Source: an uncultured Eubacteriales bacterium | Lineage (GTDB): Bacteria > Bacillota > Clostridia > Christensenellales > Aristaeellaceae | Direction of reading: 5' to 3' | Assembly (NCBI GenBank): GCA_902801165.1 | Contig: CADCHI010000008.1 | Span: 19,985 to 83,984 of the forward strand | Length of the DNA stretch: 64,000 bases | Shown here: positions 24,533 through 54,227 of the stretch, piece by piece | How positions within the stretch are numbered: position 1 is the first letter of the stretch | Layout: each line of letters begins with the position of its first letter | Notes under the pieces: generated by a model | Told to the model about the DNA's origin: nothing | Database searches by the model: none | Seen by the model: the letters and a program-made list of their open reading frames with translations, nothing else | Position numbers and translations under genes: made by a program

Positions 24533-24559
24533 GACAGCACAACCGAATATTGCAATTAA

Positions 24560-24716
24560 AGGATAGAGGCGCAGCTGTCATCATTAGCGCTGGTGCAAGG
24601 CATCGCAAAGCCGTTGCCAGCCGTGAAAGGGGCCGCTGCCGAAGATGGAGAGGGCGGGCTTCGTCTGGGCAAACGGACAACATCCGTTTGACTGCCGCGT
24701 TTGTGGAGCGCTATGT
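24560..24716 (+). ncRNA. Lysine riboswitch (L box)
   Basis: The sequence follows the L-box order: GATAGAGGCGCAG at 24562, a GTGAAAGGGG segment near 24621, GCTGCCGAAGATGGAGAG near 24633, CGTCTGGGC near 24662, a CGGACAACATCCG hairpin, GACTGCCGC, and the closing TTTGTGGAGCGCTAT at about 24701-24714. It lies between a strong promoter and dapA. The 165 bases after it contain CCCCGCCGGGG-type stems followed by GATTTT that could act as the expression platform. Lysine binding should switch off the downstream lysine/diaminopimelate genes. Confidence 0.9.
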
Positions 24717-24881
24717 ATTAATTGTGCCTTTCCCCGCCGGGGCGTGTTCCCGGTCCGGGGCTGATTTTGACAAGGACACAGCGAATGCGGCGCGCATTGG
24801 CTGTTTGTTTTTAGCGAATTGCCGAGTGCCGCCGCGCAGGGCGATTGCAATAAGAGGAAATAACGCGCGAGGTGAAAGAAC

Positions 24882-49842: not shown

Positions 49843-50020
49843 GATTTAAGAAAGGCGGTAGCAATTGGGGTTGAGCGCACTGCGCTCAGAGGTGCCGGGA
49901 ATTGCCATCGGGAGAGCTTCAATCCTCTCACGCTGTTCCAACGCATCCGGGCCGCCCATGATCTACGGGCGGCCCGGATGGCTGCACAGTTCGGCAGTAA
50001 AAGAAGATGAGTGCCTTGCA

Positions 50021-50151
50021 CTCAAAGGCGGCAGCAGATGGTCGCCGGCCCTGCCGGCCTTGCGCTCAAAGGCGGCAGCAGATGGTCGCCGGCCCTGCCG
50101 GCCTTGCGCTCAAAGGCGGCAGCAGATGGCCGCCGGCCCTGCCGGCCTGCG
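50021..50151. repeat. Three tandem 44-bp repeats
   Basis: The unit CTCAAAGGCGGCAGCAGATG GTCGCCGGCC CTGCCGGCCT TGCG occurs at 50021-50064, 50065-50108 and 50109-50151 (last one a base shorter, one C/T change). GGCCGGCAGGGCCGGC-type internal pairing makes each unit a hairpin. The motif also appears near 5805-5830 and 5935-5965, next to TTGAATCAG hairpins. The rest of the 49755-50160 gap holds no gene. Confidence 0.9.
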
Positions 50152-50160
50152 CTCATCGAC

Positions 50161-50982
50161 TTAGTCGATGACGCCGCCCTCGACCACCAGGTTGTCGGGA
50201 TCGACCGCGTCGCCGTAGACCTCCTTCAGGGTCGCTTCATAATCGGCGTGGAAGAACTGCTCCTCAGCCAGCTTTTCGATCTCCTCGTTGATGTAGGCCA
50301 GCACGGTGTCGTTGCCCTTCTGCACGGCGGGGGCGATGGTGTCCAGGCTGCCCAGGCTCTCGATGCCCACGGTGAAGCCGGGGTTCTCAAGGGCCCACGC
50401 CAGCACCTCGGTGTTGTCGGTGGACAGGGCGTCTCCGCGGCCGTCCAGCAGGGCGTTGAAGGTCTCGGTGTAGGTGTCGAACTTCAGCAGGTTCACGTCG
50501 GGCTCGTTGGCGGTGAACCAGGTCTCGGCGGTGGTGCCCTTGGAGACGATCAGGGTCTTGCCCCGCAGGGTCTCGATGTCGGTGATCAGGGCGTCGTCCG
50601 GGCTCACCACGCCCAGGGCCACCTTCATGTAGGGCAGGGCGAAGTCGACGACCTCCGCGCGCTCGGGGGTGACGGTGAAGTTCGCCAGGATGATGTCCAC
50701 CTTCGCGCTGGTCAGGTATTCCACGCGGTTCGGGGCGTCCACGCTCACCAGCTCCAGCTCCACGCCCAGGTCCTCCGCCAGGCGGCGGGCAAAGTAGACG
50801 TCGTAGCCCTGGTATTCGCCGTTCTCGTCCACATATCCGAAGGGCTTCTTGTCGGAGAACACGCCGATGGTCAGCTTGCCGCTCTCCACGATCTCATCCA
50901 GATTGCGCGCCTGGGCGTCTGCCAGGGCGGCGGGAATCAGGGCGATGGCCAGAACCAGAATCAGTGCAAACAGCTTCTTCAT
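50161..50982 (-). CDS. Amino-acid ABC transporter substrate-binding protein (family 3; predicted cystine/cysteine)
   Basis: This 273-residue protein has a signal peptide (MKKLFALILVLAIALIPAAL, cleavage near ALA-D) without a lipobox. The SBP_bac_3 motifs are GKLTIGVFSDKKPFGYVDEN, GYDVYFARRLAEDLG, LTSAKVDIILANFTVTPER, ALPYMKVALGVV and LRGKTLIVSKGTTAETWF. Its transcript has its own strong promoter, a Cys-rich leader ORF and a terminator (51024-51252). On that basis I predict a sulfur amino acid, most likely cystine, as ligand; sequence alone says only polar amino acid. Its partner genes lie directly upstream on the same strand. Confidence 0.88.
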   Translation of the reverse strand: MKKLFALILVLAIALIPAALADAQARNLDEIVESGKLTIGVFSDKKPFGYVDENGEYQGYDVYFARRLAEDLGVELELVSVDAPNRVEYLTSAKVDIILANFTVTPERAEVVDFALPYMKVALGVVSPDDALITDIETLRGKTLIVSKGTTAETWFTANEPDVNLLKFDTYTETFNALLDGRGDALSTDNTEVLAWALENPGFTVGIESLGSLDTIAPAVQKGNDTVLAYINEEIEKLAEEQFFHADYEATLKEVYGDAVDPDNLVVEGGVID

Positions 50983-51023
50983 GATGATTTCTCCCTTTCA
51001 ATGGAATTCAATGTTATTATATA

Positions 51024-51066
51024 AACAGAAAGAGCGGAATGCCGGCCAGCGCCGTCCATTCCGCTC
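51024..51066 (-). terminator. Attenuator-type terminator before the binding-protein gene
   Basis: On the minus strand GAGCGGAATG (51066-51057) pairs with CATTCCGCTC (51041-51032), followed by TTTCTGTTT. It lies after the leader ORF and 40 bases before the start codon at 50982, inside the transcribed leader, so it must be read through for expression. An upstream pair, GGTTAT (51115-51110) with ATAACC (51077-51072), ends just before the terminator arm and could form an alternative fold. Confidence 0.85.
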
Positions 51067-51094
51067 CGTCTGGTTATATCTCCCTCGGCCCCAA

Positions 51095-51181
51095 TCAGGA
51101 CACGACGGCATAACCGACAGGCACAGGGCGGCACTGACGGCACATACAACACATGCGAATGTTCGCGCTGCTGCGGGTCAT
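51095..51181 (-). CDS. Cys-rich 28-residue leader peptide (attenuator ORF 1)
   Basis: ATG 51181 follows AAAAGGAGG by 7 bases, one of the best RBSs in the window. The frame runs 28 codons to TGA at 51097-51095 and begins MTRSSANIRMCCMCRQC, with Cys at positions 11, 12, 14 and 17 and Met at 10 and 13. It sits between a perfect promoter (51252-51224) and an intrinsic terminator (51066-51024). A run of Cys codons in a translated leader is the layout of an amino-acid attenuator, here for cysteine. A second leader of the same length and start (MT-R) precedes the permease genes at 53610. Confidence 0.78.
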   Translation of the reverse strand: MTRSSANIRMCCMCRQCRPVPVGYAVVS

Positions 51182-51223
51182 GCGACCGCCTCCTTTTACC
51201 TATCATCTTGGTTGGTTGTGGAC

Positions 51224-51252
51224 ATTATATGCCGGGTGAAGGAGGTTGTCAA
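51224..51252 (-). promoter_or_regulatory. Consensus sigma-A promoter of the binding-protein unit
   Basis: Minus strand TTGACA (51252-51247), exactly 17 bases, TATAAT (51229-51224), a perfect match to consensus. Transcription should start near 51217, about 36 bases before the leader ORF. Confidence 0.92.
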
Positions 51253-51267
51253 TGGGTTTACCGTTTT

Positions 51268-52032
51268 TTAATCTTTCGGGGGCTGGCGCACCGCGTCGAA
51301 CTCGAAGGAGGCCAGGAACTGGCGGGCGCGGTCGGTCTCCGGCGCGTGGAAGAACCGCGCGGGCGGGGCGTCCTCCAGCACACTGCCGCCTTCCAGGAAG
51401 ATCACCCGGTCGGCGACGGCCTCCGCGAAGCGCATCTCGTGGGTGACGATCAGCATGGTCATGCCGTCGCGGGCCAGGTCCAGCACCACGTTCAGCACCT
51501 CGCGGACCATCTCCGGGTCCAGGGCGGCGGTGATTTCGTCCAGCAGCAAAAGCCTCGGGTGCATCAGCATGGCCCGGACCAGCGCGACGCGCTGCTTCTG
51601 GCCGCCGGAGAGCTGCCGGGGCAGGGCATGGGCCCTGTCTGCCAGGCCCACCCGGGCCAGCGCCTTTTCCGCCTCGGCCTCCACCTGGGCGCGGGGCTGC
51701 TTCAGGGCCTGCACGGGCCCCAGGGTCAGGTTGCCCATCACGTCCATGTGGGGGAACAGGTCGTAGCTCTGGAACACCATGCCCACCTGCCGGCGCACCT
51801 TTACCAGGTCCGCCGCGCCGTCGATGCGCGCGCCGTCCAGCAGGATCTCGCCGCCGTCGGGGCGCTCCAGGCCGTTGATGCAGCGCAGCAGCGTGGACTT
51901 GCCGCAGCCGCTGGGCCCCACCACGACGATGACCTCGCCCTCGCGCATGGCGAAGGACACGTCCTCCAGCACGCCGGTGCCGTCAAAGTGCTTGCGCAGG
52001 TGTCTGACCTCGAGGATGGGCTTGTCATTCAT
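51268..52032 (-). CDS. Polar amino-acid ABC transporter ATP-binding protein
   Basis: This 254-residue protein resembles GlnQ/TcyC: Walker A GPSGCGKST, Q-loop VFQSYDLFPHM, signature LSGGQKQRVALVRAML, Walker B LLLDEITAALDPEMV (Ile where Pro is usual) and switch His in IVTHEMRFA. ATG 52032 is chosen for GGAG spacing of 8 bases. It is the last gene of the permease-permease-ATPase unit; the 85 bases after it hold the promoter of the binding-protein unit. Confidence 0.93.
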   Translation of the reverse strand: MNDKPILEVRHLRKHFDGTGVLEDVSFAMREGEVIVVVGPSGCGKSTLLRCINGLERPDGGEILLDGARIDGAADLVKVRRQVGMVFQSYDLFPHMDVMGNLTLGPVQALKQPRAQVEAEAEKALARVGLADRAHALPRQLSGGQKQRVALVRAMLMHPRLLLLDEITAALDPEMVREVLNVVLDLARDGMTMLIVTHEMRFAEAVADRVIFLEGGSVLEDAPPARFFHAPETDRARQFLASFEFDAVRQPPKD

Positions 52033-52060
52033 GATCATCACTCCAGATTGTTGTGAAAAG

Positions 52061-52729
52061 TCAGCTCCACTTCTTTTCCAGCCGTCCCGCCGCCAGGGAG
52101 ATGGGCCAGCAGGCGATGAAGTAGAGGAAGAACACGGCGGCGTAGACCCAGATCGCACCCTGGGGGGCGTCGTAGCGGGCGGCGTCGATGATCTGGCTGC
52201 CCACCTTCAGCACCTCCACCACGCCGATCAGCATCACCAGGGAGGTGGTCTTGATCATGCGGGTGGTCAGGTTGATGGCCTGGGGAACCAGCCGCCGGGC
52301 CGCCTGGGGCAGCAGCACGAAGCGCCAGCACTGGGCCCGGGTGAGCCCCAGGGCCGCGCTGCTCTCCCGCTGGTGGACGGGGATGGAGGTGATGGCGCCG
52401 CGCACCAGGTCGCCCATCTCCCCGGCACCCCAGAAGGTGAACACCGCCACCGCGGCGGTCTCGCCGGAGATTTGCAGGTTGAAGGCCTTCGCCAGGCCGA
52501 AATAGACCAGGAACAGGAGCACCAGTTGGGGAACGATGCGGACGGTCTCCAGCCAGAGCCGGAAGAAGGCCTTCAGCACGGGGTTTTTCAGCGTCATCAG
52601 CGCGCCGACCACCAGGCCCAGGGCGATGGAGAGCGCCACGGACACCAGCGACAGCTTCAGCGTGACGCCGAGGCCGCCCAGCAGCCGCCGCAGGTTATTG
52701 CCCCTGAACAGAATTGCCAAATCCTGCAT
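52061..52729 (-). CDS. Polar amino-acid ABC transporter permease, second
   Basis: This 222-residue HisM-type membrane protein starts MQDLAILFRGNNLRRLLGGL behind AAGGAGG. It has LGVTLKLSLVSVALSIALGL and LVRGAITSIPVHQRESSAALGLTRAQ, the EAA loop that contacts the ATPase, and about five helices. Its start overlaps the 3' end of the first permease gene by 35 bases. Confidence 0.92.
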   Translation of the reverse strand: MQDLAILFRGNNLRRLLGGLGVTLKLSLVSVALSIALGLVVGALMTLKNPVLKAFFRLWLETVRIVPQLVLLFLVYFGLAKAFNLQISGETAAVAVFTFWGAGEMGDLVRGAITSIPVHQRESSAALGLTRAQCWRFVLLPQAARRLVPQAINLTTRMIKTTSLVMLIGVVEVLKVGSQIIDAARYDAPQGAIWVYAAVFFLYFIACWPISLAAGRLEKKWS

Positions 52730-53369
52730 AGCGCAGCCTCCTTTCCAACAGAGAAAAGGCGATGGAGAGCGGCAGCAGTAGCGCTAGGTAGGCCACCGTC
52801 AGCATCAGCAGTGCCTCGTCCGTCTTGTAGTACATGCCGATCAGGTCCTTGGCGACGTACATCAGGTCCGCCAGGGCCACGGCGCTGAACACGCTGGTCT
52901 CCTTGATCAGGAAGATGGCGTTGGCCCCGATGGCGGGAATGGCCGTGGCCAGCGCCTGGGGCAGGATCACGAACCGCAGGTTTTGCAGCGTGGTCAGCCC
53001 GAGGCACATGCCGGACTCCGCCTGCGCCTTGTCCACCGCCTCCAGGCCGCTGCGCAGCGCCTCCGCCATGTAGGCCCCGCCCAGGAACGTCAGGCCCGTG
53101 ATGGCGCAGGCCTCCGCGCTCAGCTTGACGCCCACCTTCGGCAGGCCGAAGTACAGGAAGAACAGCTGGACCAGCAGCGGCGTGTTCCGCGCCAGCTCGA
53201 TGTAGGCGGCGGCGATCTGCCTCAGCACCGGCACGCGAAAGTACCGCGCGAGGCAGCAGAGCACGCCCACGGCCAGCGACAGCAATATGCCGATGGCGCC
53301 GATGCGCAGCGTCAGCCCCGCGGCCTTGACGTACATGGGCGCGAAGCGCTGGATAAAGTCGAAATCCAT
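52695..53369 (-). CDS. Polar amino-acid ABC transporter permease, first
   Basis: This 224-residue HisM/GlnP-type permease starts at ATG 53369 (MDFDFIQRFAPMYVKAAGLT) behind GAAAGGACTG. It has AYIELARNTPLLVQLFFLYF and the EAA loop GLEAVDKAQAESGMCLGLTT. It is the first gene of its unit, about 110 bases after the leader terminator at 53478-53508, and pairs with the next permease. Open frame upstream of 53369 runs through the regulatory leader and is not coding. Confidence 0.92.
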   Translation of the reverse strand: MDFDFIQRFAPMYVKAAGLTLRIGAIGILLSLAVGVLCCLARYFRVPVLRQIAAAYIELARNTPLLVQLFFLYFGLPKVGVKLSAEACAITGLTFLGGAYMAEALRSGLEAVDKAQAESGMCLGLTTLQNLRFVILPQALATAIPAIGANAIFLIKETSVFSAVALADLMYVAKDLIGMYYKTDEALLMLTVAYLALLLPLSIAFSLLERRLRYAGFGNSVQGQ

Positions 53370-53477: not shown

Positions 53478-53508
53478 TATGAAAAGAGCGGCCCCTTCGG
53501 GCCGCTCT
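53478..53508 (-). terminator. Attenuator-type terminator before the permease genes
   Basis: Minus strand AGAGCGGCCC (53508-53499), loop GAAG, GGGCCGCTCT (53494-53485), then TTTTC. A textbook intrinsic terminator placed 15 bases after the stop of leader ORF 2 and 115 bases before the first permease start, so it must be bypassed for expression. Confidence 0.88.
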
Positions 53509-53523
53509 CTTACGAAGCGCGCA

Positions 53524-53610
53524 TCATTGCGGGCGGCGTCCGGGCATGGCAAAGCAGGCTGCCATGCAACACGCAGCCACACCCACGCGCAGGCCGATCC
53601 TCGCCGTCAT
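53524..53610 (-). CDS. Cys-containing 28-residue leader peptide (attenuator ORF 2)
   Basis: ATG 53610 has GGGAGG 8 bases upstream; 28 codons end at TGA 53526-53524. The peptide begins MTARIGLRVGVAACCMAACF, with Cys at 14, 15 and 19 and Met at 16. Length, the MT-R start and the Cys-Cys-Met run match leader ORF 1 at 51181. It lies between a strong promoter (53671-53643) and an intrinsic terminator (53508-53478). An ATG eight bases earlier opens another frame but sits too close to the RBS. Confidence 0.72.
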   Translation of the reverse strand: MTARIGLRVGVAACCMAACFAMPGRRPQ

Positions 53611-53642: not shown

Positions 53643-53671
53643 AGTATAGCGCGGGGGGAGGGGGCTGTCAA
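53643..53671 (-). promoter_or_regulatory. Strong promoter of the amino-acid permease unit
   Basis: Minus strand TTGACA (53671-53666), 17-base spacer, TATACT (53648-53643), one mismatch from consensus. The layout promoter, leader ORF, terminator, gene is the same as at 51.2 kb. Confidence 0.9.
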
Positions 53672-54008: not shown

Positions 54009-54227
54009 CGACAATCGTCAGTAGATTAGGAAAACGGAACGTTTTCCGGGTCGGTGGCTCCCGAAGGGTAAGACACCGACAATCGTCAATAGATTAGGAA
54101 AACGGAACGTTTTCCGGGTCGGCGACGCCTTACTGGCGGCGTCGACAATCGTCAATAGATTAGGAAAACGGAACGTTTTCCGGGTCGGTGGCTCCCGAAG
54201 GGTAAGACATCGACAATCGTCAATAGT
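54009..54227. repeat. Array of three and a half 46-bp repeats with alternating hairpins
   Basis: The unit CGACAATCGTCAATAGATTA GGAAAACGGAACGTTTTCCG GGTCGG is at 54009-54054 (one change), 54077-54122 and 54143-54188, with a partial copy at 54211-54227 that overlaps the stop of the DUF4234 gene. Each unit holds the hairpin GGAAAACG, GAA, CGTTTTCC. Spacers of 20-22 bases make a second hairpin with the unit ends (GTCGGTG/CACCGAC, or GTCG-GCGACGCC/GGCGGCGTCGAC). Spacers 1 and 3 are nearly identical, which rules out a normal CRISPR array. Confidence 0.88.

Follow-up and report, generated by a model that had tools for sequence, protein, structure and literature searches.

A cysteine-codon leader peptide as a probable transcription attenuator of an ABC cysteine importer in uncultured Clostridia

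Results

Organization of the importer operon and its leaders

On the minus strand of a 64,000-nucleotide window from an uncultured Eubacteriales bacterium, a short cysteine-rich reading frame and an intrinsic terminator (together, leader 1) precede the binding-protein gene of an ABC importer operon. Leader 1 very likely regulates the binding-protein gene of an ABC cysteine importer by ribosome-mediated transcription attenuation, with charged tRNA-Cys as the signal sensed, and it probably lets these uncultured gut Clostridia make more importer when cysteine is short. Computation established the parts and how well they are conserved, the competing pairings, the bias in codon choice, and the relatives of the regulated gene. 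The operon runs in the order leader 2, permease 1, permease 2, ATPase, leader 1, binding protein, and its features, in window coordinates, are as follows.

53643..53671, minus strand: leader 2 promoter TTGACA-17-TATACT, consensus score 11/12
53524..53610, minus strand: leader peptide 2 ORF, MTARIGLRVGVAACCMAACFAMPGRRPQ plus stop
53485..53508, minus strand: leader 2 terminator hairpin, dG -22.0, then TTTTC
52695..53369, minus strand: ABC importer permease gene 1, the operon's first; start codon picked by eye
52061..52729, minus strand: ABC importer permease gene 2
51268..52038, minus strand: ABC importer ATPase gene; start codon picked by eye
51224..51252, minus strand: leader 1 promoter TTGACA-17-TATAAT, sigma-70-type, consensus score 12/12 (TTGACA 51252-51247, TATAAT 51229-51224, 17-nt spacer)
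51189..51194, minus strand: leader 1 ribosome-binding site AGGAGG
51095..51181, minus strand: leader peptide 1 ORF, MTRSSANIRMCCMCRQCRPVPVGYAVVS plus stop; 28 codons, ATG 51181, TGA 51097-51095
51131..51151, minus strand: leader 1 control region; Cys codons 11 and 12 are TGT TGT, 14 and 17 are TGC
51097..51135, minus strand: predicted antiterminator 5' side, left free by a ribosome stalled with Cys12 in its A site (assumed footprint, 13 nt)
51026..51072, minus strand: leader 1 intrinsic terminator hairpin, dG -31.7; its 5' arm doubles as the predicted antiterminator 3' strand
51018..51025, minus strand: leader 1 interrupted T-tract, TTTATATA
50161..50982, minus strand: probable cysteine-type family-3 solute-binding protein gene (regulated gene), PF00497, ATG 50982

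A first-pass annotation, made from the letters of the window, had already read the region as a cysteine-sensing, ribosome-mediated attenuator, and this reading is largely supported by the conservation, the alternative folds, and the substrate described below. Its promoter is present where it had been placed, and the ribosome-binding site that it reported lies at 51194-51189, upstream of the leader ATG.

No Rfam family scores above its gathering threshold at 51018-51252, and the T-box family RF00230 has no window match at gathering score. In the best 80 of 379 related loci, a search by pattern only found no T-box-like motif before the importer, the sole match (in L062) lying far downstream; T-box or riboswitch control was thus looked for at the importer, by Rfam and motif pattern, and not found. 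The sole window match at Rfam gathering scores is a lysine riboswitch (RF00168, 72.4 bits) at 24556-24721 on the plus strand. Directly downstream of the binding-protein gene, at 50010-50160, are repeat units CTCAAAGGCGGCAGCAGATGG..CGCCGGCCCTGCCGGC, and similar words occur in the same place in another same-genus locus (L012); at 54035-54182 on the minus strand, three identical terminator-like hairpins CGGAAAACGTTCCG, each followed by TTTTCCTAAT, are spaced 66 and 68 nt apart.

The regulated gene

The binding protein matches PF00497, the family-3 solute-binding proteins. Among solved proteins, it is closest to 1xt8 (E 1.6e-84) and 2yjp (E 2e-78), the next match falling to 8e-35; according to excerpts of the respective papers, 1xt8 is the cysteine-binding protein of Campylobacter jejuni (PMC4757695) and 2yjp an L-cysteine binding protein of Neisseria gonorrhoeae (PMC7170509). 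No NCBIfam match reaches its cut-off, and these matches leave the substrate undecided. By its relation to these receptors, the protein is probably of the L-cysteine type. The first-pass annotation had predicted cysteine as the substrate from the leader codons, and the two closest solved relatives are in keeping with this; gene and leader therefore agree, from independent evidence.

Leader 1 is conserved in the same-genus loci

The binding-protein gene was searched for in 60 genomes, the window's own included (E ≤ 1e-40), and was found in 19, of which 18 are among the 28 genomes of the genus (G000 to G027) and one is from another genus of the family; all counts of 18 same-genus loci include the window locus. 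The promoter is unchanged in 18/18, in both hexamers and spacing. The initiation signals of leader 1 are also present and kept across these loci, with a Shine-Dalgarno (SD)-like sequence ahead of a start codon that is ATG, or GTG in L011 and L013. The core C-C-M/F-x-R is common to the Cys leaders of all same-genus loci (MKRSAMNQIMCCMCRQRRPLPCRSI and MFTIQSCMCCMCRGRRPSTCRPS are examples), and the N-terminal codons before it differ in sequence and in number. All 18 loci retain Cys 11 and 12, and 16 retain Cys 14 (Arg in L010, Ser in L020); position 17 is Cys in 3 loci and Arg in 15. Hence the first-pass annotation was right about four Cys residues (11, 12, 14, and 17) in the 28-codon ORF, but the last of them is not conserved. 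The alignment of related loci that it proposed as a check came out as it had expected: ORF, Cys pair, and terminator are kept in 18/18, and the N-terminal codons vary.

In L020, about 380 bases separate the leader from the gene, and leader, hairpin, and promoter are still there. The locus from the other genus of the family (L024) has the leader MLGWTMCCCMFSLGCPSRRVLCLR. When the window sequence 51217-50983 was folded, its energy was 4.8 standard deviations below that of dinucleotide shuffles, none of 200 being as stable. In four loci (L015 to L018), an SD-like stretch and a start codon (ATGATG or ATGGCG) occur between the terminator and the binding-protein gene, as if a further short ORF stood there.

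Terminator and predicted antiterminator

The terminator hairpin forms in 18/18 same-genus loci, with dG from -27.7 to -42.8, and a consensus fold of the 18 loci has compensatory double changes, with pairing kept, at 15 of 19 pairs. The automatic finder chose a longer hairpin containing it in L007, L018, and L020, and its choice was wrong or absent in L024 and for leader 2 of L027, L030, and L031. The terminator of the first-pass annotation was thus recovered, at 51072-51026 ahead of the binding-protein ATG, with the qualification that its tail is an interrupted T-tract, a trait found throughout the window's subgroup.

Stalling was modeled with a ribosome assumed to cover 13 nt, counted from the first base of the A-site codon. 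When Cys12 occupies the A site, the RNA left free as far as the hairpin apex is predicted to pair the leader with the terminator 5' arm in all 18 loci, with 15 to 27 cross pairs (counts that are inflated in L007, L018, and L020 because the longer hairpin was taken) and dG from -27.5 to -48.7; a ribosome at the stop codon leaves 0 cross pairs in all 18. In this model, then, every same-genus locus has an antiterminator that shares the terminator 5' arm and would be available only on stalling at the control codons. That of the window is predicted to have 19 pairs (51135-51115 with 51048-51072), and the GGTTAT/ATAACC stem offered earlier as a candidate (51115-51110 with 51072-51077) proved to be one part of this longer pairing.

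Compared with mononucleotide shuffles of the leader, the stalled context is among the most stable 5% in 16 of the 18 loci, the exceptions being L009 (21/200 shuffles as stable) and L012 (17/200). The number of cross pairs alone is unexceptional, that of the window being matched by 31/200 shuffles, and covariation in the antiterminator consensus is modest (double changes at 5 of 13 pairs; covariation term, -0.43). Swapping leaders and terminators between subgroups did not consistently weaken the pairing and revealed no consistent specificity.

Folding with the first part of the leader occluded, a further check proposed at first pass, succeeded in that stalled and completed states differ as predicted in 18/18, but at equilibrium the terminator wins in both. 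Its probability is 0.98 to 1.00 in 17 of the 18 loci even when stalled (0.82 in L018), and equilibrium folding does not separate the two states in these loci; since the terminator wins in every state, any readthrough switch must be kinetic. We therefore consider a crude step-wise estimate, with 14 hidden nucleotides assumed, of how much of the 3' arm has emerged before the terminator is favored. The terminator is favored later when the ribosome is stalled than when it is at the stop codon in 18/18 loci, by 1 to 9 nt; for the window the values are 13 nt and 4 nt, with an estimated decision point of 8. Among 17 loci (L009 has no T-run by the pattern used and was left out), the stalled value lies beyond the rough decision point in 12, equals it in 3, and falls short of it in 2. 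In the same model, the window leader without any ribosome behaves like the stalled state (13 nt).

Choice of cysteine codons

Control codons 11 and 12 are TGT in 35 of 36 same-genus cases. Ten window genes contain 64 TGC and 3 TGT codons, and the importer genes of 8 same-genus records contain 52 and 1, respectively. A cruder count over mechanically chosen ORFs of 5 same-genus records gave 44 TGT and 109 TGC, a weaker bias that possibly reflects spurious ORFs. Because the genus sequences are related, no probability is given for the TGT bias. Outside the genus, ten binding-protein leaders from the best 80 of 379 loci have 36 TGT and 9 TGC, and the ORFs of the loci that hold them have 115 and 246; the 12 first-permease leaders from the same 80 loci have no evident TGT bias of that kind, and their loci mostly use TGT freely.

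Other cysteine genes of the genome

The phenomenon is wider than the first-pass annotation described, with a second leader at the operon head, a third before cysK, and Cys leaders at related importers elsewhere. Eight same-genus loci, the window included, were examined for leader 2, and a Cys-Cys pair stands in 7 of them (L028 is without it); the antiterminator of leader 2 is not convincing, being no better than shuffles, 177/200 of which are as stable.

Outside the importer operon, Cys leaders were sought before cysK, cysE, and cysS. The cysK gene is preceded by the leader MRRASFMHLSRACYMDRCCCRGRMPRFSCL (L125, G000:C7), with promoter-like and terminator-like sequences, and the stalled-state fold of this leader is matched in stability by 1/200 shuffles. 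The cysK search took in 22 of the 28 genomes of the genus; a Cys leader occurs in 7 of 30 loci inspected, that is, in 7 of the 19 that belong to the genus and in none of the 11 that belong to other families of the order. An ORF immediately upstream in L125 is presumably an Rrf2-type regulator. Two same-genus cysK loci that lack a Cys leader (L131 and L132) have promoters holding CCTATTGAC and GAATAGGAAT- or GATAGGAAT-like words, which look like a repressor site and, as we take it, resemble a CymR box. Before cysS, a T-box match ends 77 nt upstream (84.8 bits, E 8.5e-19, under the Rfam cut-off of 93); T-box matches elsewhere in the genome number 17, of which 4 are above cut-off. No Cys leader was found within 450 bases before the likely start of cysE. 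Pattern matches at C6 and C19 were set aside, as they read like ordinary genes. The second leader at the operon head and the third before cysK suggest that uptake and synthesis of cysteine share control here.

Cysteine leaders beyond the genus

From a scan of public genomes, the best 80 of 379 confirmed loci were used. Eight of them, all with the leader, are closely related to the window and seem to come from assemblies already represented among the 18 genus loci. Of the other 72, 24 met the leader criterion, and 22 (after the binding-protein matches of L086 and L096 were dropped as chance-like) have a Cys-cluster leader with a good SD sequence at a related importer. It stands before the binding protein in 10 and before the first permease gene in 13, one locus having both; L037, whose first-permease match is doubtful, is counted through its other leader. 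Within these 80 loci, outside-genus leaders include MKQQMMMCCCMCGSLRPSRRELCLR (L036), MINVPINSFIHNTCCCKCCSCQSE (Herbinix, L034), MKEIMNRNNKIHNDIKSCCCMCIFCFTE (Anaerocolumna sedimenticola, L071, before the first permease gene), and MLCCCCCCNKTFIDKNKIAISAPDFFY ("Candidatus Avacidaminococcus," L098); Herbinix and Anaerocolumna belong to the Lachnospiraceae and "Ca. Avacidaminococcus" to the Negativicutes. Looser criteria bring more leaders, for example in the Peptoniphilus record L086. A search of 396 genomes of the order yielded 7 new same-family importer loci at E ≤ 1e-90, with a Cys leader in one (L165) and none in six.

Among the best 80 of 379 loci, Cys clusters in SD-preceded short ORFs occur in 17 of 70 first-permease upstream regions, versus 0.15 per shuffled set; for other residues, the counts are 7 versus 0.1 for Met, 8 versus 5.2 for Leu, and 8 versus 5.9 for Arg. 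For binding-protein upstream regions, they are 12 versus 0.5 for Cys, 9 versus 0.2 for Met, 13 versus 2.3 for Glu, and 11 versus 1.0 for Phe, where the shuffle control is unclean (it is clean for the first-permease regions), probably because the stretch overlaps the ATPase gene. Met clusters accompany Cys clusters in many leaders of L033 to L063 (e.g., MMMCCCMC) and share one ORF with them in 9 of 11 binding-protein cases from the best 80 loci. Before other ORFs of at least 200 amino acids in the same records, a Cys-cluster leader was found in 0 of 233, ORFs that were picked mechanically and of which some may be spurious. A chance origin of leader 1 was rejected on conservation, shuffles, and this control.

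The stalled fold of outside-genus binding-protein leaders beats shuffles in 5 of 7 tested (L033, L036, L040, L041, and L045; ≤5/200 as stable) and does not beat them in L042 (48/200) and L051 (129/200), L035, L037, and L044 having been left out; in leaders such as L036 and L041, the RPS codons are part of the paired strand. Results for nine first-permease leaders are mixed, 0 to 89 of 200 shuffles being as stable.

Discussion

In the mechanism that we propose, leader 1 would be translated, and a ribosome supplied with ample cysteine would pass the TGT codons and reach the stop codon, where it would cover RNA of the would-be antiterminator, so that the terminator at 51072-51026 would form and transcription would stop. 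When Cys-tRNA is short, the ribosome would stall at Cys 11 or 12, so that the RNA beginning at 51135 would stay uncovered and could pair with the terminator 5' arm (51072-51048) as the latter is synthesized. By this pairing, formation of the terminator would be put off until RNA polymerase had passed the termination point and could read into the binding-protein gene. Stalling, kinetic antitermination, and the response to cysteine are what we infer from the computed parts.

The Cys-rich peptide could itself be the sensor, its nascent CCxC binding metal or reacting to redox and thereby stalling or releasing the ribosome. Sensing of metal or redox by nascent Cys residues has reportedly been proposed for copper-responsive upstream ORFs; the CCMCR core is kept as protein within the genus, and in the best 80 of 379 loci Met clusters are enriched as well (7 of 70 first-permease genes versus 0.1 in shuffles) and share the ORF with a Cys cluster in 5 of those 7. 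However, the genes under control, a probable cysteine importer and cysK, are not metal genes, the first-permease leaders of other lineages in those 80 loci share Cys runs with no evident common motif, and the codons conserved past the Cys cluster fall on the predicted antiterminator strand, so that we give this explanation a small chance. A slighter one goes to an attenuator that reads general translation speed or initiation, for instance under antibiotics, with cysteine incidental: drug-responsive leaders with terminators are common in Bacillota, but Cys has the largest excess over shuffles at first-permease genes (17 versus 0.15, best 80 of 379 loci), and the downstream genes concern cysteine.

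Two further explanations keep the hairpin or the leader but give it another role. Control of binding-protein translation instead of transcription termination has a parallel in mycobacterial cysteine genes, which an excerpt of PMC13236596, citing Canestrari 2020, describes as under translation attenuation; we think it very unlikely here, as a stable hairpin with a T-rich tail and compensatory variation lies upstream of the gene's own RBS. The position of the hairpin between two operon genes would suit an ordinary terminator of the upstream ATPase gene accompanied by a fortuitous short ORF, but a consensus promoter, kept in 18/18, follows the ATPase stop (51268) and precedes the hairpin, and the ORF with its Cys pair is likewise kept in 18/18, against 0/233 for control ORFs, which leaves hardly any room for this explanation. 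Attenuation by a ribosome stalled for want of charged tRNA-Cys is the reading that we retain.

Beyond the window, we lean toward a broader proposal, that Cys leader-peptide attenuation is widespread in Bacillota cysteine import and has evolved repeatedly. Several lineages have Cys-run leaders, unlike one another, before the binding protein or at the operon head: the Lachnospiraceae (Anaerocolumna and Herbinix, for example), one Negativicutes record, and, if the criteria are loosened, a Peptoniphilus. In certain genomes these leaders and that of cysK may make up one cysteine regulon under leader control, in which a single operon has two attenuators one after the other and the rare codon TGT serves to sharpen the response. 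With TGT control codons amid TGC-biased genes, nature provides a clean test of the idea that attenuators are tuned by rare control codons. The attenuator model makes a simple prediction that laboratory strains could test, the leader could serve in anaerobes as a natural reporter of how far tRNA-Cys is charged, and two independent lines assign a probable substrate to an uncharacterized importer.

At amino-acid genes, Bacillota are known above all for T-boxes and riboswitches. T-boxes are treated in PMC2494555, drawn on here in excerpt. A literature search, with most subscription journals outside its reach, recognized no Cys leader attenuator for a Bacillota transporter, and leader 1 is probably a new, Cys-specific case of ribosome-mediated transcription attenuation. 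With the his-type attenuators of Escherichia coli, as excerpts of PMC9413887 present them, it has in common a short ORF, tandem control codons, a terminator, an alternative antiterminator, and a predicted dependence on ribosome position; it differs in using Cys, in regulating an importer component, and in its Clostridia host. Rli60 of Listeria is likewise a Bacillota ribosome-mediated transcription attenuator whose terminator is more stable than its antiterminator (-17.1 and -10.3 in the part of PMC5864092 consulted) and which works nonetheless; according to the same part, it senses branched-chain amino acids, belongs to a biosynthetic operon, and was demonstrated experimentally. The His leaders predicted in Bacillota (excerpts of PMC9413887 and PMC2965389) also come from comparative genomics and have runs of one control codon, but these are for histidine and precede the his operon or the hisS and hisZ genes.

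Among cysteine leaders, uORFC-8-2 before cysS of Rhodobacterales similarly combines two tandem Cys codons and a terminator with inferred ribosome-mediated attenuation, as given in excerpts of PMC8632094; unlike leader 1, it is alphaproteobacterial, precedes cysS, and is dominated by UGC, whereas the cysS of the window genome has a T-box-like leader instead. The cys operons of mycobacteria and Propionibacterium and the bifidobacterial cbs also have a Cys-run leader before cysteine genes, but in the portion of PMC1262725 used these actinobacterial leaders have no conserved terminator and precede biosynthetic genes. An importer leader kept in 18/18 same-genus loci, with unlike forms elsewhere, suggests that translation-coupled sensing is commoner in Bacillota than recorded.
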